From Lacrimispora xylanolytica (GTDB lineage: Bacteria > Bacillota > Clostridia > Lachnospirales > Lachnospiraceae), in the NCBI RefSeq assembly GCF_026723765.1, contig NZ_CP113524.1, forward strand, positions 1,411,001 to 1,475,000: a DNA stretch of 64,000 nucleotides, written 5' to 3'. This document shows positions 36,952 through 52,109 of the stretch, piece after piece (position 1 is the first letter of the stretch; the number at the start of each line of letters is the position of its first letter). The notes below the pieces were generated by a model. The model searched no databases. It had not been told where the DNA came from and worked only from the letters and a program-made list of their open reading frames with translations. The position numbers and the translations under genes were made by a program.

Positions 36952-36984
36952 GGCATTTAACTAATAAGCTTGCTTAAAAGTGTA

Positions 36985-38142
36985 TCAACCTAAATATTCC
37001 AGGATTTCTTCTGCGATCTGATTGTTGCCACCGGCATGAAGCATGCTTTTTTGATAGATTTGAATGCTTTTTTGATAGGAATCATCATTTAATATACGCA
37101 ATGCATTATCTGCCAGGATTTCAGGAGTCAGATGTTTTTTTGACAGTGTTTTCCCCATGTGCAGGGTCTCTATTTGTTTTGCCACTGCAGGCTGGTCGTT
37201 TCCCACTGGGATTACAAGCATAGGAACTCCATAATAAATCGATTCGTTGACACTATTCATTCCGCCATGTGTGATAAATACACTTGTTTGTTTTAAAATT
37301 TCTAACTGGGGTACAAAGGGATAGATAAAAATGTTATCAGGGATGGAACCTAGCTTTTCTGCTTTCACAAGCGATCCGATTGATATAATTACAGTCACAG
37401 GTTTATCCTTGAATGCCTGAATACATTTTTTAAAAAAGGATGTGGAATTATTTAAAAGTGTGCCTAGAGAGATATAAATTAAGGGAGAGCGCAGCTCGGG
37501 GAAATGAAAGGATGGATCAATCGGCCTGTCACTGATTGCTGCTCCTATGTATTTATAATGAAATGGATCAAATTCTTCAGAAAAAATTTGAAATTCTTTG
37601 ATTGTGTAGGTGAAGTTTAAAGGGGGAGCATTGTCGACCATTTCTTTTGCAATGCTGTTATAGCGCAGATGAAACTTTTTTTGAAGTCTCCTAGAAAGCA
37701 GGCTGCATAAAAAAGGATGCCGGAAAATACAGGTCATATACCATCCCCCTGTTTGACCAAAATAATGGAGAACGTGCTCATTTAAGGAGAAGGTGGAAAA
37801 CAGCCGGAATGCCGGGATTCCCAGTTCATCAGCCAGAGACTTGCCAGGTAAAAATAACATTTCATAAATAAGACAATCATAATCACGGCCAATTCGTTTC
37901 ACTGTTTGATAAGCAGAGCCCCAGCTTTTCAGCTCTTTTTGAGAGGGGGATAATGTTTCAGGATAATCATCATAGGGGATAAAGTGAGCCCCTGTTTTTT
38001 CCACCTTTGTCTTCCAGTCAGGAGCCTGTACATAGGTGACTTCATGCCCTAAGCTGATTATGACTTTTGCGAGTCCAAGGGTGGGGTTGGTATGACCGGA
38101 AAAGGGCAGGTTGACCATTAGGATTTTCTTTTTACTGTTCAT
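36985..38142 (-). CDS. GT1-type glycosyltransferase (macrolide/MGT-like)
   Basis: The 385-residue protein has the GT-B fold of UDP-glycosyltransferases. Its N-terminus MVNLPFSGHTNPTLGLAK carries the catalytic His in SGHTNP, and the C-terminal donor site reads FITHGGMNSVNESIYYG and VIPVGNDQPAVA. The closest memory match is the macrolide glycosyltransferase/MGT group, which adds sugars to polyketides for resistance or maturation. It is the second gene of a unit with TetR (11-base overlap) and is divergent from the synthase operon. It may therefore glycosylate that product. Confidence 0.88.
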   Translation of the reverse strand: MNSKKKILMVNLPFSGHTNPTLGLAKVIISLGHEVTYVQAPDWKTKVEKTGAHFIPYDDYPETLSPSQKELKSWGSAYQTVKRIGRDYDCLIYEMLFLPGKSLADELGIPAFRLFSTFSLNEHVLHYFGQTGGWYMTCIFRHPFLCSLLSRRLQKKFHLRYNSIAKEMVDNAPPLNFTYTIKEFQIFSEEFDPFHYKYIGAAISDRPIDPSFHFPELRSPLIYISLGTLLNNSTSFFKKCIQAFKDKPVTVIISIGSLVKAEKLGSIPDNIFIYPFVPQLEILKQTSVFITHGGMNSVNESIYYGVPMLVIPVGNDQPAVAKQIETLHMGKTLSKKHLTPEILADNALRILNDDSYQKSIQIYQKSMLHAGGNNQIAEEILEYLG

Positions 38143-38773
38143 AATATTCTTTTAACCTTTCTTTTATTATTTTTTCACTGGTCTCACTAATGAGAGGTGT
38201 CTCGAATTTTTGCAGCATTGTCACAATAAACTGGATTCTATGATATACTTCAATATATGTGCTGTTGACGATGATAGGATCCAGCCAAATATCAAATAGA
38301 AGTATAAATATTTCTGCCACCTCTTTGGGATACCTGCAGTTAAATTCCGAGGACGCGTTTCCCTGACGAATTATCTCTTCCACGTATTTACTTAAAACAT
38401 TGATGGAATTTCTTAAGGTATCCAATAAAGCATAAGGAACCTTTTCCGCCCAATGATTTTGGGTTAGATTAAAAAGAGTGTCATCCCTCTGTAATTCTCT
38501 TACAAGCAGGTCAATTTTTTCTACGGAATTCAAATCCCTGTTCTCAACTAATCTCTCAAACAAAATTTTTATAGCCTCTTTTCTTTGAGCAATGATATAT
38601 TCCATAATTTCCTGCTTGCTGTTAAAGTGATGGTATAAAGCGCCCTTAGATAATCCGGTAGATTTCATAATATCCATCATGGTCGTGTTTTCAAATCCCT
38701 TTTGGGAAAACAGGACGGTGGCTGTTGTTGTGATCTTCTGTTTTGTAATGCTGGCTTTGACTATTCTTGACAT
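38132..38773 (-). CDS. TetR-family regulator of the glycosyltransferase
   Basis: The 213-residue protein has a TetR helix-turn-helix (TTMMDIMKSTGLSKGALYHH at about residues 30-49) and a helical ligand domain. It leads the glycosyltransferase transcript. A GACC-GCT-GGTC palindrome lies between its -10 and its start codon, so it autoregulates. If its ligand is the product of the adjacent synthase, it would switch the transferase on as product appears (inference). Confidence 0.92.
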   Translation of the reverse strand: MSRIVKASITKQKITTTATVLFSQKGFENTTMMDIMKSTGLSKGALYHHFNSKQEIMEYIIAQRKEAIKILFERLVENRDLNSVEKIDLLVRELQRDDTLFNLTQNHWAEKVPYALLDTLRNSINVLSKYVEEIIRQGNASSEFNCRYPKEVAEIFILLFDIWLDPIIVNSTYIEVYHRIQFIVTMLQKFETPLISETSEKIIKERLKEYYEQ

Positions 38774-38793
38774 CTATTTTTACCTCTAAAAAA

Positions 38794-38843: not shown

Positions 38844-38918
38844 CTAAAACATGCAATAATGATAAAAAAACAATGAAGACTTAATATAAATAAAAATAAC
38901 AAATATTTATGTGTAATT

Positions 38919-38977
38919 AAAGTGGACAAAAAACGACAGAAAGTGGACATTTTTTTAAATTTGTTCATTTTTATGCT
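38919..38977 (+). promoter_or_regulatory. Direct-repeat activator site and promoter of the synthase operon
   Basis: AAAGTGGACA occurs twice (38919-38928 and 38940-38949), exactly 21 bases apart, so on the same face of the helix. LytTR proteins bind such pairs, and each half fits 7 of 9 positions of the general LytTR consensus as I recall it. The second copy abuts a weak -35 (ATTTTT), with TATGCT (38972-38977) as -10. A hairpin AGTATTC/GAATACT (39028-39047) lies in the leader. The operon's own LytTR gene is at 51367. Confidence 0.65.
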
Positions 38978-39075
38978 TTAATCCATAACAGATAAAATAA
39001 TCTATCAAATAAAAGAACAGGATTTGAAGTATTCGGTAAGGAATACTCTGTGAGAGAGAAAGGAGGATATGGATC

Positions 39076-40017
39076 ATGAAGTTTGCAATGTTATTTCCGG
39101 GACAGGGTGCTCAATATGTTTCTATGGGAAAAGGACTCTATGAAAAGTTCGATTGGGTAAAAAAGATTTACCAGGATATCAGTAATCGCTTTGCATTGGA
39201 CCTTTACAAGTTGAGCTGCGAAAGCGATTTGGAATATCTGACGAGAACGGATCATGCTCAGATAGCCATATTTGTGGTCAGTTACATAAACTATCTTGCT
39301 TTTTTAAATGAATTTAATATCAGGCCTGCATACATGGCTGGTCACAGCCTTGGCGAATTTACTGCGCTTGCAGCATCAGGGGCATTATCTTTTGAAGAAT
39401 CCCTGGAATTAGTACTTGAAAGAGGAAGACTCATGCAGGTAGAGGCAGATAAATCCCAGGGCGGAATGCTTGCAGTAAAAGCAAGCTATGATAATGTAAA
39501 TCTTATATGCAACGAATTTATGGAACAGCATCATTCTAAAATCAGTATATCTAATTACAATTCAGCAAATCAAATCGTATTGTCTGGTGACTCGGATACC
39601 TTAAATATAATAGAAAAGACATTGGAATCGAATGGTATATTAACGACCAGATTGAATGTTGGTGCTGCATTTCACAGCAGTTATATGGATATGGCATCTA
39701 GCGAGTTCTCATCCTTATTATCAAACATAAACTTTTCAACTCCCAATTGTGAAGTGATTTCAAATGTCAGCAGTCTTCCGTATCGAGGAGATATTTATAG
39801 TCTGTTGTCAAAACAGATGGTTTCCACTGTCCGGTGGCATGAAACCATAAAATATCTGGAAGGGGAGGGAGTAGATGTTTACATAGACTTAGGCCCAAAG
39901 AGCATTTTAAAAGGCATGATGAAAAGAAGCCTGGGTAAGGGGAAAGTTTATTCCTATGAAGATGAGGAAGACAAAGTCTTACTAAATCAAATTTTAAACA
40001 AGCAGGAGCAATCATAG
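39076..40017 (+). CDS. FabD-like malonyl-CoA:ACP acyltransferase
   Basis: The 313-residue protein has the AT/FabD fold: FPGQGAQYVSMGKGLY at the start, GHSLGE with nucleophile Ser 91, an Arg after RGRLMQ, and AFHSS with catalytic His 200. It should load extender units onto the ACP encoded two genes later. AAAGGAGG precedes the ATG. It is the first gene of the synthase operon. A dedicated acyltransferase suggests the pathway is independent of housekeeping fatty-acid synthesis. Confidence 0.95.
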   Translation: MKFAMLFPGQGAQYVSMGKGLYEKFDWVKKIYQDISNRFALDLYKLSCESDLEYLTRTDHAQIAIFVVSYINYLAFLNEFNIRPAYMAGHSLGEFTALAASGALSFEESLELVLERGRLMQVEADKSQGGMLAVKASYDNVNLICNEFMEQHHSKISISNYNSANQIVLSGDSDTLNIIEKTLESNGILTTRLNVGAAFHSSYMDMASSEFSSLLSNINFSTPNCEVISNVSSLPYRGDIYSLLSKQMVSTVRWHETIKYLEGEGVDVYIDLGPKSILKGMMKRSLGKGKVYSYEDEEDKVLLNQILNKQEQS

Positions 40018-40031
40018 GGAAGAGGTGAATT

Positions 40032-40772
40032 ATGAATAAGGCAGCAGTCGTAATTGGAGGTTCCGGTGCCATTGGAAGTGAAATATGTAAGCGGCTTGTA
40101 GGAGAAGACTATCAAACCTATTTTACTTACCTGAAAAATAAGGATACTGCCATTGCATTAGAGCAGGCATTTCCCGGTTATCTTCATGGCATTCCCTGTA
40201 ATATCCGCAATCATGAAGAGGTGGAATTGTTAATAGACAGGGTGAAAAAGGAATGTGGCAGAGTTGATGTTTTAATTAATTGTGCAGGAATTTCAGGAGA
40301 AAGTCTTTTTGTGAACAAAAGTATCGATGAATGGACAACTGTTTTGGAAACGAATCTGTTCAGCATATTTTATTCCTGCAGAGCAGTGGTCCCAATTATG
40401 CTGGAGCAGTATGAGGGAGTGATAATCAATGTATCTTCTATCCTGGGTACCTTTGGCATTCCCGGAATGGAAGACTATTGTGCCTCTAAAAGCGCTATGA
40501 TCGGATTTACACAATCACTTGCTTCAGAGGTGGCACGCTTTGGAATACGGGTCAATTGTATAAGTCCAGGAATGATTGATACCCAGATGTCAAAAGGGGC
40601 TCAAAAACAAATTGGGAAAAGTGTTAAAAAATTAATTCCCTGCAAGGAATTTGGCTCTGCTGAAAATGTTGCAGATTTAATGGGATTTTTAATTTCTGAG
40701 AAAGCAAGTTACATTACTGGTGAAAATATACTGGTTGGCGGTGGTCTGGGAAGAACACTTCCAGTCAGTTAA
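40032..40772 (+). CDS. FabG-like 3-oxoacyl-ACP reductase
   Basis: The 246-residue short-chain dehydrogenase has the cofactor motif GGSGAIG, an NCAG motif, a Ser in NVSSIL, and the catalytic YCASK (Tyr 149, Lys 153), ending in VGGG. All catalytic residues of a ketoreductase are in place. It follows the acyltransferase by 14 bases and should reduce beta-keto groups on the ACP. Confidence 0.93.
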   Translation: MNKAAVVIGGSGAIGSEICKRLVGEDYQTYFTYLKNKDTAIALEQAFPGYLHGIPCNIRNHEEVELLIDRVKKECGRVDVLINCAGISGESLFVNKSIDEWTTVLETNLFSIFYSCRAVVPIMLEQYEGVIINVSSILGTFGIPGMEDYCASKSAMIGFTQSLASEVARFGIRVNCISPGMIDTQMSKGAQKQIGKSVKKLIPCKEFGSAENVADLMGFLISEKASYITGENILVGGGLGRTLPVS

Positions 40773-40792
40773 TAAGAAAGGTGGATAAAGCG

Positions 40793-41185
40793 ATGGAGAA
40801 CAAGGAATTATTTGACATGGTACAGGAGACGGTTGCAGAGGTACTTGATGTTGAGAAGGAGGAAATCAGTGAAATAACAAGACCTGTTGTTGATCTGGAT
40901 GCAGAGTCTTTGGATTTGCTGGATATTTTGTTTAAGTTAAGCCGTCAGACTGGTAAAAAGGTAACGATGCAGGTGATTCAAAAAGATGTAAGAGGTGGCC
41001 TGACAGAAGATGAATTTATAGATGAGGCAGGATATATTACCAGGGAGGGAGTAGAAAAAATAAAGGCTGCGATTGGAGATGACAATATTCAGGCTGAAAA
41101 TATTACGTCAAAAGAAGTATTAAGGCTGATTGATATTAAATATATTATGAAAATTTTTAATGAAACCCCGGCTGGAGAAGTGTAA
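40793..41185 (+). CDS. Acyl carrier protein with C-terminal extension
   Basis: ATG 40793 (AAAGGTGG about eight bases upstream) gives 130 residues. The ACP helix bundle is at about residues 1-85, with VDLDAESLDLLDI, where Ser 39 is the phosphopantetheine site. Normal ACPs have about 80 residues. The extra 45 (EGVEKIKAAIGDD, then IKYIMKIFNE) look like further helices. A GTG four codons earlier lies inside the ribosome site. It is the only carrier protein in the operon, and the operon has its own transferase for it. Confidence 0.9.
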   Translation: MENKELFDMVQETVAEVLDVEKEEISEITRPVVDLDAESLDLLDILFKLSRQTGKKVTMQVIQKDVRGGLTEDEFIDEAGYITREGVEKIKAAIGDDNIQAENITSKEVLRLIDIKYIMKIFNETPAGEV

Positions 41186-41186
41186 C

Positions 41187-41639
41187 ATGCGGTTTCATCT
41201 GATTGATAAATTAATCTCCTTTACGGAGTGGAAAGAAGCTTCAGCATTAAAAAATGTCACTTATGGAAACCCGGAATTTATAAATGAGAATCATTACATG
41301 GATGATACCCTTTTGCTGGAGAGTATGTTCCAGTGTGCCGCATGGCTGATTGTTATATCATCCGGTCAAAAATTAAGACCAACCATAGTAACGGCAGAAG
41401 GATACCAGATATACGAGCATGCCTCTCCGGGCGAACAGTTGATCATTACCATCACCATTGAGGATTATAATGCAGAGTACGCTACCATTCGTGGAGAAGT
41501 TTATAAAAAAGATAAGTTATGTGTGACTTTAAAGAATGCCATATTAAAGCTGGTTGATACCTGGGAGTTAGAGGATCCGGAAATAACCAAAAAGTATATA
41601 AAGTACTTAACTCAAAAAAGAGGGGATGTTGGAATATGA
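41187..41639 (+). CDS. Hotdog-fold protein, FabZ/ApeI-like, altered loop
   Basis: ATG 41187 follows GGAGAAG and begins one base after the ACP stop, giving 150 residues. The sequence NENHYMDDTLLLESMFQCAA echoes the FabZ motif, with His 36 and Glu 45. These are only 9 residues apart where FabZ has 14, and the P-x-x-PG turn is missing. It is therefore a relative of thioester dehydratases with a trimmed active-site loop. It may be inactive, act as partner to the second hotdog protein at 42912, or catalyse another thioester step. Confidence 0.7.
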   Translation: MRFHLIDKLISFTEWKEASALKNVTYGNPEFINENHYMDDTLLLESMFQCAAWLIVISSGQKLRPTIVTAEGYQIYEHASPGEQLIITITIEDYNAEYATIRGEVYKKDKLCVTLKNAILKLVDTWELEDPEITKKYIKYLTQKRGDVGI

Positions 41640-41665
41640 CATCCCTTTTTTAGAAAGGCGAAACT

Positions 41666-42922
41666 ATGATAGCAAAGGAAGATAGAAAAGTAGTCGTTAC
41701 GGGAATGGGTATGATTACACCGATTGGCAATAATGTGGAGCAATCCTGGAGGAATTTATTAGAGGAACAGTCGGGGATAGAGCGAATCACATTATTTGAT
41801 ACGAAAGGATTCTCCTGTAAAATTGCTGGACAGGTAAAGGATGAGACTTATCATACTGATTTGCCATATAGCAGAGGCACATATTTTGGACTGGCTGCAT
41901 CAAAAGAAGCGCTTGAGGATGGGAATGTGATCAATGATGCAGATATACTTGATGAGATGGCTGTTTTTCTTGGCAATTCAGGAGCAAGAACCGGGCTTGA
42001 TGAGTTTTCAGGAGAGTTTAAGGCCCGAAATTTAAAAGAGTTAACTTTAAGAAACTTAAACAGTGACCGCCAGTTTGATAAAAGCAGATATTCAGCTGCC
42101 GCAGAAACAATAGCCAAGGAATTTAAACTATACGGCGGCTGTTACTCCATTACTACAGCATGTGCATCAGGCACTCAGGCAATTGGCATGGCTTATGAAA
42201 GCATCAAAGCGGGAGAAAATACGGTTGTGCTGGCAGGAGGGTGCGATGCCATGATAACGGAGATTGATTTAATGGGGTTTTGTATGTTGGGAGCTGTAAC
42301 AAGCGAATACAATGAAAAACCATCAAAGGGAAGCAGACCCTTTAATAAAGACAGAAGCGGTTTTGTTCTGGGAGAAGGTGCAGGCATGTTGATTCTTGAA
42401 GAAAAGAAACATGCTTTGGATAGGAAAGCTAAAATCTATGCTGAAGTTGTGGGGTTTGGTAATGCCATTTCCGGCTATAGTATTCTGGATACGCCTCCCA
42501 ATGGCGAGAATCTTGCACAAGCTATGGAAATTGCCTTGGCTGAGGCTGGAATCAACAAAAAACAGATTGGGTATATCAATGCTCATGGAACCTCAACACG
42601 TGACAATGATTCCTCAGAATCCGCAGCTGTAACCAGAGTGTTTGGTGAAGATACCATGAATATTCCTATAAGTTCTACAAAGGCCTCCACCGGTCATTTA
42701 ATCTCTGGTGCTGGAGCCATAGAAGCTATCTTTTCCATTATGGCTTTGAAGGATCAATGTCTTCCACCAACCCTGAATCTTGAGGATATAGACGGAAAAT
42801 GTTCCCTATTACATATTCATAAACCATTAAAAAGCACCATTGATTACGCCATGTCAAACTCTTTGGGGTTTGGAGGGTCCAATGCAAGTGTCATTTTCAG
42901 GAGGGCGGAGAATGAGCTTTAA
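41666..42922 (+). CDS. Ketosynthase (FabF-like), full active site
   Basis: The 418-residue protein has the thiolase fold of KASII. The nucleophile is Cys 166 (TTACASGTQAI), with His 307 (NAHGTST) and His 344 (STGHLISGAG), plus the late SLGFGGSNASV. It is the first of two complete ketosynthases in the operon and is likely to pair with one of the two degenerate ones, as KS and chain-length factor do in type II polyketide synthases. It is preceded by AGAAAGGCG. Confidence 0.95.
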   Translation: MIAKEDRKVVVTGMGMITPIGNNVEQSWRNLLEEQSGIERITLFDTKGFSCKIAGQVKDETYHTDLPYSRGTYFGLAASKEALEDGNVINDADILDEMAVFLGNSGARTGLDEFSGEFKARNLKELTLRNLNSDRQFDKSRYSAAAETIAKEFKLYGGCYSITTACASGTQAIGMAYESIKAGENTVVLAGGCDAMITEIDLMGFCMLGAVTSEYNEKPSKGSRPFNKDRSGFVLGEGAGMLILEEKKHALDRKAKIYAEVVGFGNAISGYSILDTPPNGENLAQAMEIALAEAGINKKQIGYINAHGTSTRDNDSSESAAVTRVFGEDTMNIPISSTKASTGHLISGAGAIEAIFSIMALKDQCLPPTLNLEDIDGKCSLLHIHKPLKSTIDYAMSNSLGFGGSNASVIFRRAENEL

Positions 42923-43328
42923 AATGGTTGATAAAATCTGCGAAGTCAGCTATTCCAGCATAAAGACTATAAAGCTGCTGTCAATCGCCGAGCCTGTATA
43001 TGAAATACATTTTCCTTTTTTTCCAGTACTTCCTGCTGTGCTCTTATTAGAAAATGTCAAACAGAGTATTGATTTATTTATAAGAAATAATGAAGAAGAA
43101 AAGATATGTTTATTTCAGGGAGTCAAAAAGTTGAAGGTATATAAAGCCCTGTACCCTGGAGATGGAATTTTCACGGAAGTATTCTTAATCAGTAAAGCTG
43201 AGGATTGCTATGTGTTTGATGCAACTATTTATCATAATGAAACGATAGCAGCTAAATTAAAAGAAGTTAAAGTTGTTGTGGAAAAGGAGAAAACTGCATG
43301 GGAAAAAGAGTTGCAATCACAGGTCTAG
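42912..43328 (+). CDS. Hotdog-fold 3-hydroxyacyl-ACP dehydratase, FabZ-like
   Basis: ATG 42912 (GGAGGGCGGAG upstream, overlapping the previous stop by 11 bases) gives 138 residues. HFPFFPVLPAVLLLE has the FabZ spacing, with His 33 and Glu 47 fourteen residues apart, although the PG of the family is PA. It should dehydrate beta-hydroxyacyl chains. It overlaps the next gene by 31 bases. Confidence 0.8.
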   Translation: MSFKMVDKICEVSYSSIKTIKLLSIAEPVYEIHFPFFPVLPAVLLLENVKQSIDLFIRNNEEEKICLFQGVKKLKVYKALYPGDGIFTEVFLISKAEDCYVFDATIYHNETIAAKLKEVKVVVEKEKTAWEKELQSQV

Positions 43329-44347
43329 GAGTCAGCCTTAAACCAGCCCCTTCTGAAAATGAAAAAGCCTTTAAAAACAGAAAAATAAAAAAATTATTAT
43401 CTAGAGGAGAAAAAATCTTTTGCCGTTCAGCCGTGGATGCCGTTCTTGATTCCGGAATTCTGGAAACGGATACTGCAAATGAAAAAAGAGGAATATTTCT
43501 TGGTACAACAAAAGAGTCATCCTCCAGAACGGAGCTGTTAAATGTTTTAAAGAGCATTTATGATGGAGAAATCAGACATAAAGAGTTTGCAGAAGCCGTG
43601 GCAGAAAATATGTCTCCTCTTTTTGTAATTAAATCTCTGCCCAATGCCTGTCTTCATTATGCCGCAGAGGAATTTGGCATAAGAGGAAGTAATTCTTTAT
43701 TTATAACAAATGGAGCAGCAGGTTCTCAGGCAATCGCAGCCGCATATCACACGATACTTAGGGGTGACTGCATCTGGTGCCTGGCTGGTGGATTCGATTC
43801 GCACCTGGATGATGAAGAAGCTTATAATTTTAAACAATATGGATTTAAAGTGGATACCATAGGCGAAGAAAAAAGCAGTGAGGGATTAGGAGAAGGAGCA
43901 GGTACCTTTATTTTGGAAGATTATGACCATGCTGTTTCAAGAATGGCAAAGATATATGGTGAGATTATCGGACATGGTGAGACTTTTTTGGATCTCGATC
44001 AGGAAGAGACAGAGAATATCAGAGTTTTAAAAAAGGGGATATGTAAAAGCCTGGCATCTGCTCATGAAGATGTTACTAACGTTGCATTTATTCATGCCGA
44101 TGGCCTGACCTATAAAAATTATAATGTGATTGAGGAAGCAGCCATAAAAGATATCTTTCACGACATACCGCAGATAAATTCAAAAAATCAGATTGGAAAT
44201 CTGCTGGGGGCAGCACCTATGGTAGAGATTGCCGAGGATCTGAGTGGAAAGGAAATAGATCAAAACAGATCACAGGTATTTATGAAACTATCTGCTGGTT
44301 TTGGGGGAGAAGTATCAATCATTGTGTTAAGGAGGAATGGGCTATGA
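43298..44347 (+). CDS. Degenerate ketosynthase 1 (chain-length-factor-like)
   Basis: The 349-residue protein keeps the ketosynthase fold (KRVAITGLGVSLKP at the start, GLGEGAGTFILED, then the final AGFGGEVSIIVL), but the active site is gone. The nucleophile position reads NGAAGSQAI, with Gly 139 (or Ala) for Cys. The HGT motif is HADGLT, and the second His (TGH) is lost in NQIGNLLGAAP. It is also about 70 residues shorter than KASII. This is what chain-length factors look like, so it probably forms a heterodimer with an active ketosynthase. Confidence 0.85.
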   Translation: MGKRVAITGLGVSLKPAPSENEKAFKNRKIKKLLSRGEKIFCRSAVDAVLDSGILETDTANEKRGIFLGTTKESSSRTELLNVLKSIYDGEIRHKEFAEAVAENMSPLFVIKSLPNACLHYAAEEFGIRGSNSLFITNGAAGSQAIAAAYHTILRGDCIWCLAGGFDSHLDDEEAYNFKQYGFKVDTIGEEKSSEGLGEGAGTFILEDYDHAVSRMAKIYGEIIGHGETFLDLDQEETENIRVLKKGICKSLASAHEDVTNVAFIHADGLTYKNYNVIEEAAIKDIFHDIPQINSKNQIGNLLGAAPMVEIAEDLSGKEIDQNRSQVFMKLSAGFGGEVSIIVLRRNGL

Positions 44348-45384
44348 ATTCAAAAATATCAGGAGTAGGTTCTTATTTTCCAGGTACTGCTATATCAAAT
44401 GAGTTATTGACCAAAAGGTATGAAATAGATCCCTGGCTTTTAAAAGAATTAGGAGTGGAGAACCGGTTTTGGGCCTCTGATCCTGAGAGTCTTATTTTAA
44501 ATGAGACACAAAGTGAGATGATGGCAAAGGCGGTAGAAGAGGCAATTGCTGATTCACAGATTCAAAAGGAAGATATTGATCTGCTGATTACCACATCCAC
44601 GGTTCCGGATTATACCCTGCCAACAACTGCCACTCTGGTACAGGAGCTGTTAGAAATCAAGAAGTGTAATGCCCTGGAGATTCATTGCGGCTGTGTTGGA
44701 GCCCTTCAGGCAATTGATATTGCAAATTGTTATATTAAATGCGGGAAAGCCAAAACAGTGGTTATTGCAGCAGGGAATCTAATGAGCACCTATTGGCTTC
44801 GGGAATGGAAAAATAAAGAAATAGAGGGGATGGCAGATCAACTGAATATGGCGATGTTTTCAGACAGTGCCAGCGCCATTGTAATCCAAGAATCCAAAGA
44901 AGAAGGAATTTTATATAGTTTTTCAGAAAGCGTTGGCAGTGGAATTGAGAAGGGGATTTTTCTGGATATGGGCGGAGCAGTATATCCAGGAGACCAAGTG
45001 GATTTTTCCGAGAACCGGCATAAATGGAGTCAAAGGCCTAAACTGATTAAAAAACATGGCAGTGCTTTATCAAAGAGTGCAATGGAAGAGCTGGCAGAAG
45101 GGACGGGCCTGGCAATAAAAGATTTAAAGTGGATTATTTTTCCTCAGGCGAATCCTTCCTTACTGTTAAATGATATAGAAGCATTGAAATCCAGCGGATT
45201 TCCAGTAGAAAAAATCAGATATAACGTAAATAAAGTAGGAAATAGTGCAACTGCATCACTGTTTCATGTTCTATATGAGATCGATCAAAACGGGGAGCTG
45301 GCATACGGAGACAAAATAGCCATAATTGGAGGGGAAGCTTCCAAATGGATGTATGGGGGCGTGTTGATCGAATGGAAAAAATAG
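44344..45384 (+). CDS. KASIII-like enzyme with altered triad
   Basis: The 346-residue protein has the FabH fold. The nucleophile is Cys 117 (HCGCVGALQAI) and Asn 300 is kept (VGNSATAS), but the catalytic His of PHQAN is Pro 267 (IIFPQANPSLL). FabH relatives with changed triads serve as starter-unit selectors or acyltransferases in polyketide pathways. It overlaps the previous gene by four bases (ATGA) and the next by 13. It probably primes the chain with an unusual acyl-CoA, or transfers a finished chain. Confidence 0.88.
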   Translation: MNSKISGVGSYFPGTAISNELLTKRYEIDPWLLKELGVENRFWASDPESLILNETQSEMMAKAVEEAIADSQIQKEDIDLLITTSTVPDYTLPTTATLVQELLEIKKCNALEIHCGCVGALQAIDIANCYIKCGKAKTVVIAAGNLMSTYWLREWKNKEIEGMADQLNMAMFSDSASAIVIQESKEEGILYSFSESVGSGIEKGIFLDMGGAVYPGDQVDFSENRHKWSQRPKLIKKHGSALSKSAMEELAEGTGLAIKDLKWIIFPQANPSLLLNDIEALKSSGFPVEKIRYNVNKVGNSATASLFHVLYEIDQNGELAYGDKIAIIGGEASKWMYGGVLIEWKK

Positions 45385-46121
45385 CACTTGTTACGGGAAG
45401 CTCCAGAGGAATCGGGAAAGTAATTGCTGAAAAACTACTGTTAGAAGGCTACACGGTGTATCTTCATTATTGCATGAATGAGGAAATAGCAAAGAATACG
45501 TATATGGATTTTTTGAAACGGGATCTGAAAGCAAAGCTGATTTGTTCTGATATATCAAATGAAGAAGAAATAAAACAGATGTTTCAAACAATTCAGGAAG
45601 AATCGGGATATTTAGATGTACTCATAAACAATGCAGCAACTGGAGTCCATAAGAACATTACAGATATCAGAAAGAGAGATTGGGATTTTACATTTGAGGT
45701 AAATGCAAGAGGAACATTTCTCTGCAGTAAATATGCAGTTCCTTTGATGAAAGCAGGTACTAAAGGTTATAAAGCAATTGTGAATATCACCAGTACGGGA
45801 AGCCAAAGATTTATTCCAGGATATTCTCTTATAGGAGGAACCAAAGCCTACATAGAAAATCTTACGAAGTATCTGGCATGTGAATTATCCGGCTATGGAA
45901 TTAACGTAAATGCGGTTTCAGGAGGCTTGGTTGAAACAGACTCTTTAAACTATTTTCAGGACAAAAAGCTGGTAATGGAAGAATTTATAAAGAGAGTTCC
46001 AGCTGGACGCATGGTTTTACCGGAGGACATTGCAAATTTGGTATTAGTTCTATGCGATTCAAAGTCTGAGATGATAAGAGGGCAGACGATTATCGTAGAC
46101 GGAGGGGCATCTTTGGTTTGA
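45372..46121 (+). CDS. FabL-like enoyl-ACP reductase
   Basis: ATG 45372 gives 249 residues. The Rossmann start is LVTGSSRGIGKVIAEKLL. The active-site Tyr and Lys (Tyr 151, Lys 158) are seven apart in YSLIGGTK, the Y-x6-K spacing of enoyl reductases, not the Y-x3-K of ketoreductases. The tail NVNAVSGGLVETDSL and SEMIRGQTIIVDGG resembles Bacillus FabL closely. It should saturate enoyl groups with NADPH, so the operon can run full reductive cycles. It overlaps the KASIII gene. Confidence 0.88.
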   Translation: MEKIALVTGSSRGIGKVIAEKLLLEGYTVYLHYCMNEEIAKNTYMDFLKRDLKAKLICSDISNEEEIKQMFQTIQEESGYLDVLINNAATGVHKNITDIRKRDWDFTFEVNARGTFLCSKYAVPLMKAGTKGYKAIVNITSTGSQRFIPGYSLIGGTKAYIENLTKYLACELSGYGINVNAVSGGLVETDSLNYFQDKKLVMEEFIKRVPAGRMVLPEDIANLVLVLCDSKSEMIRGQTIIVDGGASLV

Positions 46122-46146
46122 AACTAAAACCCAGGAGGAGATGAAT

Positions 46147-47796
46147 ATGAAATACAATGGCAAAAACAAAAATGAATTATACACGGGAGGCAAAAGCTAT
46201 CCCGGAAAAAAGTCTCCATTTGATGTCTGGACAAGGGGAAATGTAGCGGAAGCATTTCCCGATATCATGACACCCCTAAGCTGGTCGCTGTGGGGAGAGA
46301 CTATGAATGAATTGTTAAGAAATGCTTTTCGGTATTATTCGTTTTCATCAGAGGTGAAAGAAAAATGCTTTATTATGCTGAAAAATGGGAAGCTTTACTA
46401 CAATATCGGATTGGTCAATCTTTATATGAAACGAATAGGCCTCTTCTCTATGGATGAGATTGTTGGTGGAGAAACCGCATATAAAGAGAAGAAGCAAAAG
46501 AGACGAATTCATTGGCTTAAGTTTATGGTTCATTTACCCGGCAGTATAAAAGCGGAAAAAAACAACGGGAAACTGGAAGCAGAATCCCGTCTAAAATGGA
46601 GAGAGTTTTATCGCTATCATAAGAAATGGGCTGAATTGGATTATAATTCTATGAATTTAGATGAGCTTTTTCATTTATTCAATGAAAGAATTGTCTATGG
46701 AAAAGCAAACATGCATTTACATACGGATGCGACAACCGCAGCATTTTCTAAAATGGCAATGCTCCAATGGAAGCTTAAGAAAAATGGCTATGATGATTCA
46801 AGCTTATTAAAGCTGGTAAATGATATTGAAGGGATTGAGATGGCAGAGATCAACCAGCATATGGAGCTTTTAAAAAATATGATTGAGCCATTGGAACAAA
46901 AGCAGCAGATATTGGAATGTCTAAAAGGTGAAAACTGGAAACAATCCTTGATGGATTCAGGCTTTACACAGGTCTGCATTTTTATAGAGGAAAATCTTAT
47001 CGGCAATTATGGTCACCGGGGAAAGAATGAGCTTGAAATAAAAGAACCATACTGGGCTGAAAATCCGCGTATGCTTTTAAATATGATAATTGAAAGATGT
47101 GAAAATAAAGAAGCAGGCAGGACAAGAGAACAGGAAAAAATAAATGTAGAGGATAAGAAGTTCGGGAAATTAATCGAGCAGTCCAGAACCTTTACCATGC
47201 TGAGAGAAAATAATAAACATTACTTGTATTTTATCATTGCAGAGATTAAAAGAATCATAAGAGTCATAAATACAAAATTATGCAGCACCATACCCCAAAT
47301 GGAGCAGGACGACATTTATTTTATGGAATATGAGGAGCTGGGCCGGCTGATTGGGGATATTTCTGAATTTGAGAAAATAAAGGCAAATGTTATCGTAAGA
47401 AAGAAGATATACTCTGAGTTTCTGGTAAAATGTGACGAGCCTGAAACAAAAACACCAGGAAAGAAAGTTCTTCGAGGAATACCGGCCTGCTATGGACGGG
47501 TAACGGGAAGGGTTAAGGTAATAAATCATAATTATGCCGGGGATATAAAAAAGGGAGATATTATTGTGATAAAATCCCTTGATATTAGCTGGACTCCTTT
47601 GTTTTCCGTTGCAGGAGGCCTGGTTACTGAACTGGGAGGAATCTTGTCACATGCAGCTATTATAGCAAGAGAATACAATATACCTACTATCGTTAATGTA
47701 GAGAATGCTACTTCAATCCTAAAGAATGGAGACCAGATCGTATTAGACGGAGAAACTGGAGTAATCCATTATGATAAAACTATTTCTACTTCATAA
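46147..47796 (+). CDS. PEP-synthase/Rph-like protein: middle domain plus phosphohistidine domain
   Basis: ATG 46147 is preferred, since AGGAGGAG sits directly against the ATG at 46141. The 549-residue protein ends in the swivelling phosphohistidine domain of PEP synthase, pyruvate phosphate dikinase and rifampin phosphotransferase (GGLVTELGGILSHAAIIARE, with the phospho-His 502). Before it lies a long helical middle domain like the substrate-binding part of rifampin phosphotransferase. The ATP-grasp domain that normally precedes these in one chain is absent here and is encoded at 50334-51275. The two should act together to move phosphate from ATP to a substrate. Confidence 0.82.
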   Translation: MKYNGKNKNELYTGGKSYPGKKSPFDVWTRGNVAEAFPDIMTPLSWSLWGETMNELLRNAFRYYSFSSEVKEKCFIMLKNGKLYYNIGLVNLYMKRIGLFSMDEIVGGETAYKEKKQKRRIHWLKFMVHLPGSIKAEKNNGKLEAESRLKWREFYRYHKKWAELDYNSMNLDELFHLFNERIVYGKANMHLHTDATTAAFSKMAMLQWKLKKNGYDDSSLLKLVNDIEGIEMAEINQHMELLKNMIEPLEQKQQILECLKGENWKQSLMDSGFTQVCIFIEENLIGNYGHRGKNELEIKEPYWAENPRMLLNMIIERCENKEAGRTREQEKINVEDKKFGKLIEQSRTFTMLRENNKHYLYFIIAEIKRIIRVINTKLCSTIPQMEQDDIYFMEYEELGRLIGDISEFEKIKANVIVRKKIYSEFLVKCDEPETKTPGKKVLRGIPACYGRVTGRVKVINHNYAGDIKKGDIIVIKSLDISWTPLFSVAGGLVTELGGILSHAAIIAREYNIPTIVNVENATSILKNGDQIVLDGETGVIHYDKTISTS

Positions 47797-48271
47797 AAAT
47801 GTGTATTCCCATCAGACGGTCCTCTGTATTGTTCAGTCTATCAATGCCAGGGGAATGGTGATTTATAATAAGAAAGGACAGGCTGTCATTAAACAGGCAG
47901 ATCTTTTTCTTAGTATTTCTCATTCCGGCGAATGGGCGGTAATCGGTGTAGGAGCAGAGAAGATTGGAATTGATATCCAGCATTATAAAGCCAAGAGCAG
48001 AGATTTTATAGAATATGTAACTGGTGAAACGGACATATCAGTGCCGCTGTTTAGTAAAATATGGTCCATTAAGGAAAGCTTTGTTAAATGGCTGGGCACT
48101 GGCTGGATTGGAATAGAGCCCAATGAGATTTACATAGACTTTAATTTGCAAAAGGTATACAGCAAAACAGAGACAGCCTATTTTATTACCTCTGAGATAT
48201 TTGAATCTTATGTTGTTTGTATATGCAGTGAATTATCATCTATTCTGAAAGAAAGGATCATGTTTGAATGA
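47771..48271 (+). CDS. Sfp-type 4'-phosphopantetheinyl transferase
   Basis: The 166-residue protein has the two hallmark motifs: IGIDIQ with metal Asp 68, and WSIKESFVKWLG with Glu 102, Lys 101 and Lys 106. An earlier SISHSGEWAV strand binds coenzyme A. It is shorter than Sfp (about 225) at the N-terminus. It overlaps the previous gene by 26 bases and should convert the operon's ACP to its holo form at Ser 39. Confidence 0.9.
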   Translation: MIKLFLLHKNVYSHQTVLCIVQSINARGMVIYNKKGQAVIKQADLFLSISHSGEWAVIGVGAEKIGIDIQHYKAKSRDFIEYVTGETDISVPLFSKIWSIKESFVKWLGTGWIGIEPNEIYIDFNLQKVYSKTETAYFITSEIFESYVVCICSELSSILKERIMFE

Positions 48272-49440
48272 GTAATCGTGTCTTTATAACGGGAATGGGT
48301 ATGATATCACCCCTTGGTGATGATGTGGAAGAGAACTGGAAGAACCTGATACAAAGAACAAACCACTTTATGCCCTATCAGCTGTTTAAAGGAAAGGGCA
48401 AAAAGATGGAAGAATTCTATGTTGGAAGGGTTTCGTGCAGTTTCGAACAGGAAAAATACAGTAAATTAGCGGAAGACGCTTTGGTTCAGGCAATTAAGGA
48501 TTCAGGAATCAACCCGGAGAAAAATCCTGGGAGATGCGCATTGATTATAGGCAGCAGCATAGGAAACAGCGAATACATATCTCAAAACACATCTGATCGG
48601 TACGGCAGGCTTAATTTAGACGAAGTATTACCTGAAGTTCTTGCTCATAAATTGGCTGATAAATATTTTGTGAATTCCATTGTAATGGTGATAAACAGTG
48701 CCTGTTCCTCCGCTTCAAATGCAATAGGGAAAGCATACCGGCTGATTAAAAACAATAGGATTGACTGCGCTTATGTCATCGGTATTGATGCGGTGCTTTC
48801 AGATATAGGTCTGGCCAGCTTTTCTGCATTAGGGGTACTTAGCACTGATGAATCAATGAGACCGTTTGATGTACATCATAACGGATTTATCCTAAGTGAA
48901 GGATCCGGAGCTTTAATATTGCAGCGAGAAGATCACATGAAAGAAGAGCATTTAAACACTTGTACAGAAATTATCGGGTATGGTTCCAGTTGTGATGCAT
49001 ATCACATCGTTGCTCCTGATATAAAAGGAGAGGGAGCTGCATTGTCTATGAAGAAGGCACTAAAGGATGCAGGTATAAAATCCGTAGAAGTAGACTATAT
49101 CAATTGCCATGGGACCGGAACGAAGTTAAATGATGAATCGGAATACAATGCAATGGAATTGGTTTTCAATCATTCGGTCTATGCAAGCTCAACCAAAGGA
49201 ATGACAGGTCATTTACTGGGCGCTTGCGGAATCATTGAAACAATTTTTTCCTGTCTGTCAATAAAACATAGCTTGATTCCGGGAACCGTGAATTTAAGAG
49301 ATCCCATAAAAAACAATTACATTCGATTGGTATCTGAAAATCTGCAGACAAAGTTAAATGTTGTAATGAATAACACCTTTGCCTTTGGAGGACAGAATGC
49401 GTCTCTGATATTAAAGAAGTGGGAAGGAGAATCTATTTGA
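48268..49440 (+). CDS. Ketosynthase (FabF-like) 2, full active site
   Basis: The 390-residue protein has a complete KASII triad: Cys 146 (NSACSSASNAI), His 281 (NCHGTGT), His 315 (MTGHLLGACG), and the closing FAFGGQNASLIL. It overlaps the transferase gene by four bases, and its stop overlaps the TTG of the next, degenerate ketosynthase. That makes a coupled KS/partner pair. Two different KS pairs in one operon suggest separate elongation stages or two chains. Confidence 0.94.
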   Translation: MSNRVFITGMGMISPLGDDVEENWKNLIQRTNHFMPYQLFKGKGKKMEEFYVGRVSCSFEQEKYSKLAEDALVQAIKDSGINPEKNPGRCALIIGSSIGNSEYISQNTSDRYGRLNLDEVLPEVLAHKLADKYFVNSIVMVINSACSSASNAIGKAYRLIKNNRIDCAYVIGIDAVLSDIGLASFSALGVLSTDESMRPFDVHHNGFILSEGSGALILQREDHMKEEHLNTCTEIIGYGSSCDAYHIVAPDIKGEGAALSMKKALKDAGIKSVEVDYINCHGTGTKLNDESEYNAMELVFNHSVYASSTKGMTGHLLGACGIIETIFSCLSIKHSLIPGTVNLRDPIKNNYIRLVSENLQTKLNVVMNNTFAFGGQNASLILKKWEGESI

Positions 49441-50300
49441 ATCGTATATTTATTAAAGATATCGTCTGCCTTTATCCGGACGCGGTCAGTGATTGCATAG
49501 ATACAGATTTGTATCTGCTTCCCAGGGAGAAAAGAAAGCTTGACCGGTATTCTCAAATATCCTTAGCAATCTCCAAAAAGATACATGAATGTAACCCGGA
49601 TTTTTTTGAACATGGTGAAGATATTTCTGTTTTATCAGCAACCTGTTTTGGGGCAATGAATACAATCACCGATGAAGTCGCAAGATACCATGATACAGGA
49701 CTGGTATCACCTGTTTTTATCACGAAAATACTTTCCAATATGCAAGCTGCCGTTATTGCAATTGCATTGCAGCTGAAAGGTGCTAATTATACGGTATCAA
49801 CAGGAGTAAACTCATCCTGCGATGCTGTGATAGACGGATATGAGCTAATCATGGAAAACAGAGAAGGCCGCGTAATGGTTGTTAGCAGTGATTCCTGTGA
49901 TAGCGAATTTGGAGAAGCGGTACATAGAAATTACTCCCAGGATGATGTGAAAGGCTTTGGCGAGTGCGGGGCTGCATTACTGCTGGACACACAGTCTGGA
50001 GATGGGGCCTTAGGGGAAATCACAGATATACAGAGAGGTATTCTTCATCAGAACGAAAACATTTTTAAAAGGTTAGATATAGAGGTTGAGAAGAAGGAGA
50101 AAGGAAGTCATGGTATCTACCTTAGAGAATCCAGGAAGCAGATTACTGATCTCCCGTTTTCCTCTGGTTCCCAAACAATTTTTGATATAAAAAAAGGAAT
50201 TGAGTATTGCAGAGATAACAAGGAGAAGGAGTTTATTGTATATACCATTTCTAAGAAAATGATATATAGTGCAATTACCATTCAATGCGTCCCCAATTAA
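49437..50300 (+). CDS. Degenerate, truncated ketosynthase 2 (chain-length-factor-like)
   Basis: TTG 49437, with GGAAGGAG seven bases upstream and overlapping the previous stop (TTGA), gives 287 residues. It aligns with the N-terminal half of ketosynthases, but the nucleophile position in STGVNSSCDAVIDG is Val 124. The C-terminal half with both His motifs is absent. The family comparison is with short beta-ketoacyl-synthase-like proteins of aryl-polyene loci. It is probably a structural partner for the active ketosynthase just upstream. Confidence 0.75.
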   Translation: MNRIFIKDIVCLYPDAVSDCIDTDLYLLPREKRKLDRYSQISLAISKKIHECNPDFFEHGEDISVLSATCFGAMNTITDEVARYHDTGLVSPVFITKILSNMQAAVIAIALQLKGANYTVSTGVNSSCDAVIDGYELIMENREGRVMVVSSDSCDSEFGEAVHRNYSQDDVKGFGECGAALLLDTQSGDGALGEITDIQRGILHQNENIFKRLDIEVEKKEKGSHGIYLRESRKQITDLPFSSGSQTIFDIKKGIEYCRDNKEKEFIVYTISKKMIYSAITIQCVPN

Positions 50301-50333
50301 TTACTTTTAGGATAATGAGGAGATTTATGACGT

Positions 50334-51275
50334 ATGTATGTTAGGAACTTAAAAGAGTTAAATATTCGTGACAATATAAATGTTGGTGGCAAGGCTGCAA
50401 ACCTGGGAGAATTATATTCGTTAAAAATAAATATTCCAATGGGATTTTGCATTACCTACAATGCATATGAAGACTTTATCAAGGAAAACGGAATTAATGA
50501 ATCAATAAAGCATTATCTAAGTGAAAATTTGAATGGAAAGATGTCTCTGGAAGAGTGCAGCAATTACATCTTAGAAAGTTTTTTACATGGAAACATCCCC
50601 ATTCATATAAAAATAGAGATTATCAGGGAATACAGAGCTCTGGGAAAAAAGGCATGTGTAGCAGTCAGATCCTCGGCTAATGTGGAAGATAGGAAGGAGG
50701 CAAGTTTTGCAGGGCAGCAGGATACATTTTTAAATATCTCCGGAGATTTTAATGTGTTTCAACATATAAAAAAATGCTGGGCATCCCTCTGGTCACCGAG
50801 AGCAATCGATTACAGAAGGAAAAATAATTTTGATGATCATCATATTCAAATGGCGGTTCTTATACAGAAGATGATTTCTCCTGATGCAGCAGGCGTTGTC
50901 TTTACCTGTAATCCAATGAATGATCAGAAAGGAGAAGTGCTGGTCAATTCAACATACGGCTTGGGCGAGGCAGTTGCTTCCGGTACAGTTTCTCCAGATA
51001 CATATGTTTATGATATGAACAAAAAAAGAATTATTTACAGACAAAAAGGAGGAAAAGAATATAGGTTTATTAACTCTGATAATGGTATAAAAAAGGTACT
51101 TAACAACAGGAAATTTAAGCAAACATATTCTTTAAATTATCTGAATGTTTTAAGACTCGTTAAGGTATGCAAAAAGATCGAGGGGAGATTTGGCTGTCCT
51201 CAGGACATCGAATGGGGAATTGTAAATGGAAAAATATATATTGTACAATCAAGACCGATAACGAATATAAGATAA
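50334..51275 (+). CDS. Split PEP-synthase/Rph-like ATP-grasp protein
   Basis: The 313-residue protein is just the PPDK_N-type ATP-binding domain. It has VGGKAANLGEL at the start, CVAVRSSANVEDRKEASFAG, GVVFTCNPMNDQ with VNSTYGLGEAVASGTVSPD, and it ends at IEWGIVNGKIYIVQSRPIT. In rifampin phosphotransferase and PEP synthase this domain is fused to the phosphohistidine domain, and the chain here stops exactly at that boundary. It should charge the His of the protein at 46147. GAGGAG precedes the ATG. Confidence 0.9.
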   Translation: MYVRNLKELNIRDNINVGGKAANLGELYSLKINIPMGFCITYNAYEDFIKENGINESIKHYLSENLNGKMSLEECSNYILESFLHGNIPIHIKIEIIREYRALGKKACVAVRSSANVEDRKEASFAGQQDTFLNISGDFNVFQHIKKCWASLWSPRAIDYRRKNNFDDHHIQMAVLIQKMISPDAAGVVFTCNPMNDQKGEVLVNSTYGLGEAVASGTVSPDTYVYDMNKKRIIYRQKGGKEYRFINSDNGIKKVLNNRKFKQTYSLNYLNVLRLVKVCKKIEGRFGCPQDIEWGIVNGKIYIVQSRPITNIR

Positions 51276-51366
51276 ATGAGAAAATTACAATAAGATAAGG
51301 AATTTTTACATGCTGCTAATTATGAAGATAAAACAGGATAACCTATAACCTACGGAGGTGAATAGG

Positions 51367-52083
51367 ATGAATATTGGGTTTTATACAAAAGATGTTAGTT
51401 TCATGAGCTCGATCAATAAAGTGATACATTCCCTAATCAAATCTAAATATTCCCCGTTGGAACTAAATGTCTGGGAGGATATTAAGAGCGCACTTTTCCT
51501 GATCGACGAGGAGTATTGTGATGGCTTTATCATAGATATTACCAATAATACCAAGGAAGAGTCATGTGGATTTATATCAAAGCTCATGCATCAGTATCCT
51601 CATACAAAGATAATTGTTTTAATTGATAATCTGGATTGTATCGACTGGTTCTTAAAATATAAAATATTTAAATATATGTCCAAAAAGAACATAATAAAGG
51701 AATTGGAAACCATACTTTCCATTTTGCATCATAGTGTTGCTGGTAGAAAAAACAGAACACTTGAATTAGTTACGAAAAAAAGATATGATAAAATTTATTT
51801 CAATGATATTTTATATATCAACCGGGAAGGTAAAAATGTAAACATATTTACTGCGGACAATCGCTGCGTGACTTATCGTATGAGTTTACTGCACATTTAT
51901 GAAAAATTAGACGAAAAGACCTTTATCTATGTTGATAAAGGCTGTATCGTGAACAGCTCGTTTGTAAGTGAGTTTACGGCTCAGCAGTTGCAGTTGATCA
52001 ATGGCACTAAATTACCTGTCAGCAGAGATGGGATTAAAAGACTATCAAAGCTGCTTCAATTTGATCATGTTTTAACCAATTAG
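51367..52083 (+). CDS. LytTR-domain regulator of the synthase operon
   Basis: ATG 51367 (GGAGG eight bases upstream) gives 238 residues. The last 110 (KRYDKIYFNDILYINREGKN, then DKGCIVNSSFVSEF and LPVSRDGIKRL) form a LytTR DNA-binding domain. The first 125 look like a receiver but lack the usual acidic pair. A possible phospho-Asp sits in FIIDITN. No sensor kinase is next to it. It ends the operon and probably activates it at the 21-bp-period direct repeat at 38919. Confidence 0.85.
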   Translation: MNIGFYTKDVSFMSSINKVIHSLIKSKYSPLELNVWEDIKSALFLIDEEYCDGFIIDITNNTKEESCGFISKLMHQYPHTKIIVLIDNLDCIDWFLKYKIFKYMSKKNIIKELETILSILHHSVAGRKNRTLELVTKKRYDKIYFNDILYINREGKNVNIFTADNRCVTYRMSLLHIYEKLDEKTFIYVDKGCIVNSSFVSEFTAQQLQLINGTKLPVSRDGIKRLSKLLQFDHVLTN

Positions 52084-52109
52084 ATATCATAAGTCTCATT
52101 CGTCAAGTA

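Follow-up and report, generated by a model that had tools for sequence, protein, structure and literature searches.

The 64,000-nucleotide stretch of Lacrimispora xylanolytica DNA analysed here (the window, positions 1411001-1475000 of a 4.5 Mb genome in a single contig, NZ_CP113524.1) carries, between 39076 and 52083, fifteen genes in one direction (all +) that encode a reducing type II polyketide synthase (PKS) or fatty acid synthase (FAS)-like enzyme set and, in two separate genes, the halves of a dikinase resembling rifampin phosphotransferase (RPH). We consider it somewhat better than an even chance, at a probability of roughly 0.55, that a two-component RPH-type dikinase has been added to this reducing type II PKS operon as a tailoring enzyme, acting on the chain or on the product. 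Such an arrangement would join two fields, the phosphorylation of phenols and antibiotics and the assembly of polyketides, and it makes a testable prediction, a phosphorylated or phosphate-activated natural product. The original prediction for this DNA began the operon at 38919 and spoke of fourteen genes; the first gene starts at 39076, and fifteen are counted, as they also are when the prediction's own list is summed.

The dikinase is encoded C-terminal half first. RphC (46141..47796, +, 551 aa; PF00391, E 1.3e-24) comprises a substrate-binding region and a swivel domain with His504, and RphN (50334..51275, +, 313 aa; PF01326, E 1.2e-92) is the ATP-grasp half, with Lys20, Arg112 and Thr131. 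The best Protein Data Bank (PDB) match of RphN is 5hv6 (E 6.1e-60), and its residues 2-312 align to 4-316 of 5fbs; the best matches of RphC are 5hv2, 5hv1 and 5fbs. Against a profile built from single-chain homologues, 19 proteins of at least 700 aa taken from family loci with RphC matches and leaving out a pyruvate, phosphate dikinase (L087) and shorter frames in L070, L084 and L086, RphC residues 27-543 cover positions 326-871 (probability 100%, E 1.6e-46). On these alignments RphN and RphC are predicted to tile one RPH-like enzyme, divided at the boundary of the ATP-grasp domain, and the phosphohistidine swivel domain lies at the C-terminus of RphC, the same position as in RPH. RPH is a single chain, whereas the Lacrimispora enzyme is two chains, both of which have RPH as best solved match. 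The PDB titles of 5hv6, 5fbs, 5hv1 and 5hv2 all read phosphoenolpyruvate (PEP) synthase, and we take 5hv1 and 5hv2 to be RPH entries. In the published texts 5FBS is RPH-Lm (PMC4844700), and 5HV6 and 5FBS are named as RPH (PMC12167813).

The residues on which RPH depends can be followed into both halves. Counted along the alignment, Lys22, Arg117, Thr136 and Glu297 of RPH-Lm correspond to Lys20, Arg112, Thr131 and Glu293 of RphN, and Arg666, Glu667, Lys670 and His825 to Arg355, Glu356, Lys359 and His504 of RphC. Substitution of Lys22, Arg117, Thr136, Arg666 or Glu667 in RPH-Lm causes loss of resistance or of rifampin inactivation, Glu297Ala leaves both unaffected, and His825 is the phosphate carrier (PMC4844700). 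The counterparts of these residues are conserved in 4/4 species compared, Glu293 being identified through its DIEW motif. The original prediction of a split PEP-synthase/RPH-like enzyme stands as regards the split, with the catalytic residues retained, and needs adjusting as regards kinship, which by domain content is nearer to RPH and to the two-component dikinases discussed below, with no match to a PEP barrel.

PEP synthase is the identity suggested by the RphN half taken alone, its top-scoring models being those of PEP synthase (309 and 305 bits), and such an enzyme could supply PEP or pyruvate precursors. Against this, only PF01326 and PF00391 were matched in RphN and RphC by Pfam at E 0.001, with no C-terminal pyruvate/PEP barrel in either, the swivel domain occupies the C-terminus, like that of RPH, and residues 27-543 of RphC align with RPH-like proteins; we reject the PEP synthase identity on this domain content and regard it as exceedingly improbable. 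Nor is either half an orthodox RPH, as the NCBI equivalog model for RPH (NF041857, cut-off 999 bits) scores RphC at 107.7 and RphN at 278.9 bits, neither reaching the cut-off, while the single-chain RPH of a Streptomyces nigrescens plasmid, used as a control, scores 1658.1 bits. A role in rifampin resistance was rejected for an enzyme that is split and so far under the RPH cut-off.

PigC and RedH are PEP-synthase-like enzymes of prodiginine pathways, and both halves match their NCBIfam models (119.0 and 111.2 bits for RphC, 235.5 and 219.8 for RphN). This opens the alternative that phosphate acts as an activator in the manner of PigC and RedH, a carbonyl, enol or hydroxyl being phosphorylated for joining to a second building block or for elimination, and the lack of any other recognised release enzyme in the unit would suit it. 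The match is nevertheless unspecific, since the scores are far under the cut-offs of 1300 and 1350 bits and the true RPH control itself scores 374 and 390 bits with the two models; moreover, PigC and RedH are single chains, unlike RphN and RphC, and the unit has no recognised gene that would provide a second building block. We judge this activation distinctly unlikely. A prodiginine-type cluster as such was rejected, no supporting (pyrrole) genes being recognised in the unit. Related to the activation idea, in our estimate equally doubtful, and without a description in the literature searched, is the proposal that the split dikinase phosphorylates an ACP-bound or just-released chain of the type II reducing PKS (ACP, acyl carrier protein) and that the phosphate then serves as leaving group for elimination, cyclisation or joining; were this so, phosphorylation would replace a release or dehydration step that has no other recognised enzyme.

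The division into two genes recurs in assemblies of four species, each with the C half before the N half and with two ketosynthase-family genes, KS2 and CLF2, between them (in the window RphC and RphN are separated by genes for a 4'-phosphopantetheinyl transferase (PPTase), KS2 and CLF2), and because of this recurrence the split is not an assembly accident. It also has precedent. HpeHI is a two-component dikinase in which HpeI resembles the ATP-grasp domain of RPH and HpeH the swivel and substrate-binding domains, and its homologues CreHI and PpsAB act on phenolic compounds (PMC12167813). These systems have in common with RphN/RphC a separate ATP-grasp protein, a substrate-binding/swivel protein and a conserved swivel histidine (PMC12167813); the corresponding features here are the ATP-grasp RphN, the substrate-binding region and swivel domain of RphC, detected by profile only, and His504. 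The likeness is one of architecture and of shared relation to RPH. The systems also differ, HpeHI, CreHI and PpsAB being catabolic and directed at phenols, whereas RphN and RphC belong to a reducing PKS operon and have genes between them. The original prediction knew of no description of a phosphotransferase in such an operon. Literature searches on titles and abstract openings, directed at Lacrimispora polyketides and at PKS clusters containing a dikinase or an enzyme like PEP synthase or RPH, returned no description of this operon and no other PKS-operon case; split dikinases as such are known in HpeHI, CreHI and PpsAB (PMC12167813). The type of protein and its splitting are therefore already known, and the PKS-operon setting is the part for which no description was found.

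Genes of related kind do occur near one another, or near PKS genes, elsewhere. The S. nigrescens plasmid SNP1 (L117), source of the RPH control, has its single-chain RPH gene at 8501-11098, 3.6 kb 3' of a type I PKS gene (49-4938; acyltransferase, dehydratase, enoyl reductase, ketoreductase and ACP domains) in an almost unannotated record; an RPH-like gene near PKS genes is hence not confined to the window, though the SNP1 gene encodes a full RPH of the rifamycin-inactivating type and may be a resistance gene lying beside a PKS by chance. On the Rhodococcus plasmid pLW3 (L121) an apparent split pair is visible from annotation only, a PEP-utilizing enzyme gene upstream (5647-6885) and a 'pyruvate, phosphate dikinase' gene downstream (10296-11687), the two being separated by genes for an acyl-CoA dehydrogenase and an AMP-binding protein. 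Five loci from genomes of the family (L075, L079, L080, L083 and L084) each have two closely spaced RPH-like genes, and the second match in L084 lies in a short frame containing N-like ambiguous residues.

The chain-building part of the operon was assigned from Pfam and NCBIfam matches, several of them under the NCBI equivalog cut-offs. It opens with a FabD-like malonyl-CoA:ACP acyltransferase (AT; 39076..40017, +; PF00698 E 1.3e-34, TIGR00128 E 2.9e-77 at 260.0 bits vs a cut-off of 260.9), followed by a FabG-like short-chain dehydrogenase/reductase acting as ketoreductase (KR; 40032..40772, +; Pfam and NCBIfam) and an ACP of 134 aa (40781..41185, +; PF00550) with an extended C-terminus, similar to that in two aligned Streptomyces relatives. 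Two FabZ-like hotdog proteins flank the first ketosynthase (KS): HD1 (41160..41639, +), which matches the NCBIfam FabZ model NF000582 (E 2.2e-9) and no Pfam family, and HD2 (42912..43328, +; PF07977), whose start codon is inferred within an open reading frame (ORF) listed from 42840 and whose FabZ His and Glu are canonically spaced. KS1 (41666..42922, +; PF00109/PF02801) has its Cys-His-His intact by alignment, and its partner, the degenerate ketosynthase CLF1 (43298..44347, +; PF00109 E 1e-12), has Ala for the active Cys and Asn for the second His. A KASIII-like enzyme (44344..45384, +) and a FabL-like enoyl-ACP reductase (ER; 45372..46121, +; start codon inferred, ORF listed from 45345) precede RphC. 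The ER scores 264 bits with the FabL model NF005975 (cut-off 328), has 3oic, an enoyl-ACP reductase, as closest solved structure (E 3.6e-59), and carries a Tyr-X6-Lys motif read from the translation and the 3oic alignment. Between the dikinase halves lie the PPTase (47771..48271, +; PF01648), KS2 (48268..49440, +; Pfam, Cys-His-His intact by alignment) and the 293 aa CLF2 (49419..50300, +; PF00109 E 1e-6), a degenerate ketosynthase missing, by alignment, the Cys and a large part of its C-terminal half. A LytTR-family regulator (51358..52083, +; PF04397 E 1.6e-15) is the final gene.

This is a type II organisation, with discrete ACP and enzymes, KS1 and CLF1 separated by HD2, and KS2 and CLF2 adjacent. 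The families named in the original prediction (AT, KR, ACP, two hotdog proteins, ketosynthases, KASIII-like enzyme, FabL-like ER, PPTase, LytTR regulator and two phosphotransferase halves) are all present with family matches, and the alignment agrees with two active and two degenerate ketosynthases in KS/dead-KS pairs. Co-directional and often overlapping genes were likewise correctly described: eight of the 14 junctions overlap, with the HD2 and ER starts inferred (ACP-HD1 by 26 nt, KS1-HD2 11, HD2-CLF1 31, CLF1-KASIII 4, KASIII-ER 13, RphC-PPTase 26, PPTase-KS2 4 and KS2-CLF2 22 nt), and at the remaining six the genes are 14, 8, 26, 19, 33 and 82 nt apart. What went unremarked is that two further proteins are atypical. 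The KASIII-like protein lacks the FabH Cys-His-Asn triad, with Cys117 and Asn300 kept and Pro267 at the position of the catalytic His in four species; HQAN is intact in two other FabH-like proteins of this genome, FabH2 and the housekeeping FabH. HD1 keeps its Glu and has a His-to-Glu loop five residues shorter than that of HD2 (4/4 species); MAFFT aligns a His with that of HD2, and phmmer places a gap there. Because of this short loop, and because the His position is variable in the Streptomyces HD1 proteins described below, HD1 is probably a partner of HD2, not a catalyst. We rejected the operon as housekeeping FAS given the separate FAS locus of the genome (4471514-4475517), in a region (4464000-4482000) that matches KS, KR, AT, KASIII and HD2.

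Other bacterial clusters offer partial parallels. The aryl polyene (ApeO-ApeC, ApeR, ApeH-ApeP) and L. reuteri fun/pks clusters are likewise type II PKS/FAS-like, with KS, KR, dehydratase (DH) and ACP (PMC8358021, PMC12664062, PMC6498181), and aryl polyene systems provide precedent for a short CLF (211 residues, X. doucetiae) and for DH named as a pair (PMC8358021, PMC12664062). The Lacrimispora operon differs from them in its two KS/CLF pairs, ER, His-less KASIII and dikinase. The R2lc clusters also have a dedicated acetyl-CoA carboxylase (PMC6498181), for which the operon has no Pfam match.

A closer relative of the core is found in Streptomyces, and it has no dikinase. CLF1 matches 13 plasmid records, all Streptomyces, of which five were compared as stretches of 24.8-30.9 kb at E 1e-3 (NZ_CP108801.1, NZ_CP109507.1, NZ_CP108007.1, NZ_CP107820.1 and NZ_CP106799.1). 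All five have the order fabD, ACP (133-141 aa), KR, HD1, KS1, HD2, CLF, a fused KS-KS protein (784-788 aa) and KSIII. Two differences set this apart from the Lacrimispora order: ACP and KR have changed places, and KSIII follows the counterpart of KS2/CLF2 instead of preceding it. That counterpart is the fused protein, whose first half in L115 matches KS2 and second half CLF2, with KS1 matching both halves better; CLF2 was matched in 2/5 loci, and the Streptomyces KS1 is about 36% identical to that of Lacrimispora. The KSIII proteins share the Pro at the catalytic His position (5/5) and differ in having lost the Asn too; at the HD1 His position two of the five have His, one Ser and two Ala, while HD2 keeps its His in 5/5. 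A core of AT, ACP, KR, hotdog pair, KS/CLF pairs and His-less KASIII is in this way common to Streptomyces plasmids and one genus of Lachnospiraceae, which makes it possible to test what the His-less KASIII and the atypical hotdog partner do.

None of the five stretches matched RphN, RphC, the MGT glycosyltransferase and TetR1 regulator introduced below, or LytTR, and the ER query matched the KR gene only, which leaves room for ER of kinds other than FabL-like. The original prediction had named absence of the phosphotransferase genes from related loci as a result that would refute it; at the distance of Streptomyces this is what is seen, neither half being matched in the five of 13 loci compared. 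The neighbours also differ (AMP-binding, TauD, cupin and aldo/keto reductase genes), and an annotated TetR gene lies 5' of fabD in 3/5 loci. The literature searched does not name a product for these clusters; a triacsin-like identity was considered and gained no support there. Since the Streptomyces core lacks a match to RphN or RphC, chain building of this kind does not need a dikinase; this enzyme, the glycosyltransferase and the FabL-like ER were either added in Lacrimispora or lost elsewhere. The same absence in 5/5 loci points to a tailoring function for the dikinase rather than one in elongation. Tailoring or self-protection is the simplest reading of the enzyme.

Self-protection has to be weighed together with the genes upstream, which the original prediction, correct for the operon genes themselves, left out of the unit. 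An MGT-family (macrolide-type) UDP-glycosyltransferase (36985..38142, -; TIGR01426 at 282.7 bits, above its cut-off of 260) and a TetR-family regulator divergent from the operon (TetR1; 38132..38773, -; PF00440) are conserved in all four species, so that the conserved unit runs from the glycosyltransferase (36985) to LytTR (52083) with the same gene order in three other species (G691, G633 and G721). In these relatives the glycosyltransferase adjoins the operon at 84-96% identity, TetR1 is 76-95% identical, and LytTR is kept 3' of RphN. Dikinase and glycosyltransferase might inactivate the product in the cell, with the active form regenerated outside, as for RPH with rifampin or OleI-type enzymes with macrolides. 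Both halves have RPH entries as their closest solved structures, and the co-conserved glycosyltransferase is of the macrolide family (above the TIGR01426 cut-off; far below those of NF033129 and NF000362), both of which favour the idea. It is weakened by the position of RphC and RphN among core genes inside the biosynthetic operon, and by the unit having no transporter, phosphatase or glycosidase recognised by Pfam. Self-protection seems to us unlikely overall, if the most serious of the alternatives.

For the tailoring dikinase that we favour, the observations are the genes, their families and catalytic residues, their co-conservation and the related core without a dikinase; that the halves form one enzyme, that the PKS product is its substrate, and each step and the order of steps given here, we infer. 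The AT would load malonyl onto the extended ACP, itself activated by the operon PPTase, or by another PPTase where the operon gene has decayed. The two KS/CLF pairs would extend the chain, to be reduced by KR, by the hotdog pair (HD2 catalytic, HD1 its probable partner) and, in some rounds, by the FabL-like ER, while the His-less KASIII may serve in priming or acyl transfer, not in a normal FabH condensation. RphN, with ATP bound, would place the beta-phosphate on His504 in the swivel domain of RphC, ATP being converted to AMP and Pi, and the swivel would deliver it to a hydroxyl or enol of a substrate lodged in the remainder of RphC, either the chain or the released product. Glycosylation of the product would probably fall to the MGT-type enzyme.

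Several points weigh against this assignment. RphC residues 1-26 are unmatched and 27-240 are aligned by profile alone, and the AlphaFold model of RphC is poor (mean pLDDT 38.1). Trees place RphN weakly and do not resolve RphC, and descent of the two halves from a single gene is therefore unsupported. Phenols are the substrates of the characterised two-component dikinases, yet the unit has no recognised aromatase/cyclase or aromatic-forming gene, and Pfam likewise shows no thioesterase, transporter or release enzyme there. The core, finally, is compared between distant clusters (mostly 23-37% identity), and gain or loss cannot be dated from it.

Conservation bears on a further alternative, that the set is decaying or fortuitous and the dikinase halves are leftovers of another pathway. 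Loss does occur here: the operon's PPTase gene, still intact in L067 as in the window, has decayed in two relatives, where remnants with differing internal deletions remain (L068, about 13531-13605; L069, about 13428-13544) and another PPTase presumably serves the ACP. The dikinase halves show the opposite, with catalytic residues conserved, RphC overlapping the PPTase frame, both halves sitting in the unit in all four species compared, and dN/dS near 0.1. Measured against L067, L068 and L069, with ratios that are rough for the latter two as synonymous distances exceed 0.9, dN/dS is 0.10-0.13 for RphC and 0.10-0.11 for RphN, within the 0.02-0.18 of the 14 operon genes overall (PPTase excluded). 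Purifying selection acts on both halves as on the rest of the operon genes computed, and mere leftovers are very improbable.

The operon is real, conserved and genus-restricted within the samples searched, all genome and plasmid counts being from samples. The original prediction asked whether the gene set recurs in other Lachnospiraceae, and in these samples it does so only within the genus. RphC is found in 5/25 genus genomes at E <=1e-30, own and same-species genomes counted. At E 1e-3 it matches at least 223/397 family genomes, the best outside the species, among the matches listed, being 36% identical over residues 287-542, and in 18 family loci with RphC matches none matched an operon PKS gene (E 1e-6). 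The KASIII is found at 1e-40 in 4/392 order genomes, all of this genus, and at 1e-25 in 166/398 phylum genomes (best other match 32%); KS1 at 1e-112 in 2/341 class genomes, both of this species; and CLF1 at 1e-22 in 1/366 phylum genomes, the window's own. Among plasmids RphC matched 65 records, none across more than 80% of its length, and KS1 matches were all under 60%, the best among those listed at 42%. A genome-wide KASIII scan with two peptide patterns, which has little power for distant relatives, matched 65 stretches and gave four loci of this genus; the same operon is present in Clostridium sp. 12(A), [Clostridium] aerotolerans DSM 5434, Lacrimispora algidixylanolytica SPL73 and the metagenome-assembled genome Hungatella sp. 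UBA7603.

The operon does not stand out in composition (GC 38.2% vs 38.0% for the window). An Rfam search of 36000-53500 gave nothing at gathering score, and scans for promoters and terminators were not above shuffled sequence (54 vs 55.9 and 8 vs 10.3). No clean empty site was found, five operon-less genomes (G716, G717, G719, G720 and G730) having a single flanking gene each in 20 kb stretches. The flanks, a rifampin ADP-ribosyltransferase to the left and genes as far as TetR2 (to 55553) to the right, are matched beside the unit in the closest relative only. The rifampin ADP-ribosyltransferase (35713-36462; PF12120 E 2.4e-46) lies 0.5 kb from the unit and has no match in the G633 and G721 stretches.

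Some 11 kb downstream a second biosynthetic cluster begins, from about 63012 of the window (genome 1474012 to about 1496173; L098 and L099). It includes an aldehyde ferredoxin oxidoreductase, a nucleotidyltransferase, a second UDP-glycosyltransferase-like gene, FabH2 (HQAN intact), POR-type subunits, two enoyl-CoA hydratases, a B12-radical SAM protein, a 3-hydroxyacyl-CoA dehydrogenase, a KS, an NDP-sugar dehydratase and a PPTase, the KS and PPTase recognised by Pfam and an ACP and AT by reading, as well as a KASIII-superfamily protein of 370 aa that reads as HMGS-like. The gene for this last protein occurs in 6/25 genus genomes, the five operon carriers and G714, which is without RphC. Having its own KS, PPTase, ACP and AT, and this marker in one operon-less genome, the cluster was treated as separate and not as part of the same pathway. 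Between the two clusters (59326-62347) the translations read as an agr-like set, with a histidine kinase (59326-60660, -), a LytTR-type response regulator (60657-61442, -) and an AgrB-like protein (61760-62347, +), which could link the LytTR-ended operon to quorum sensing.

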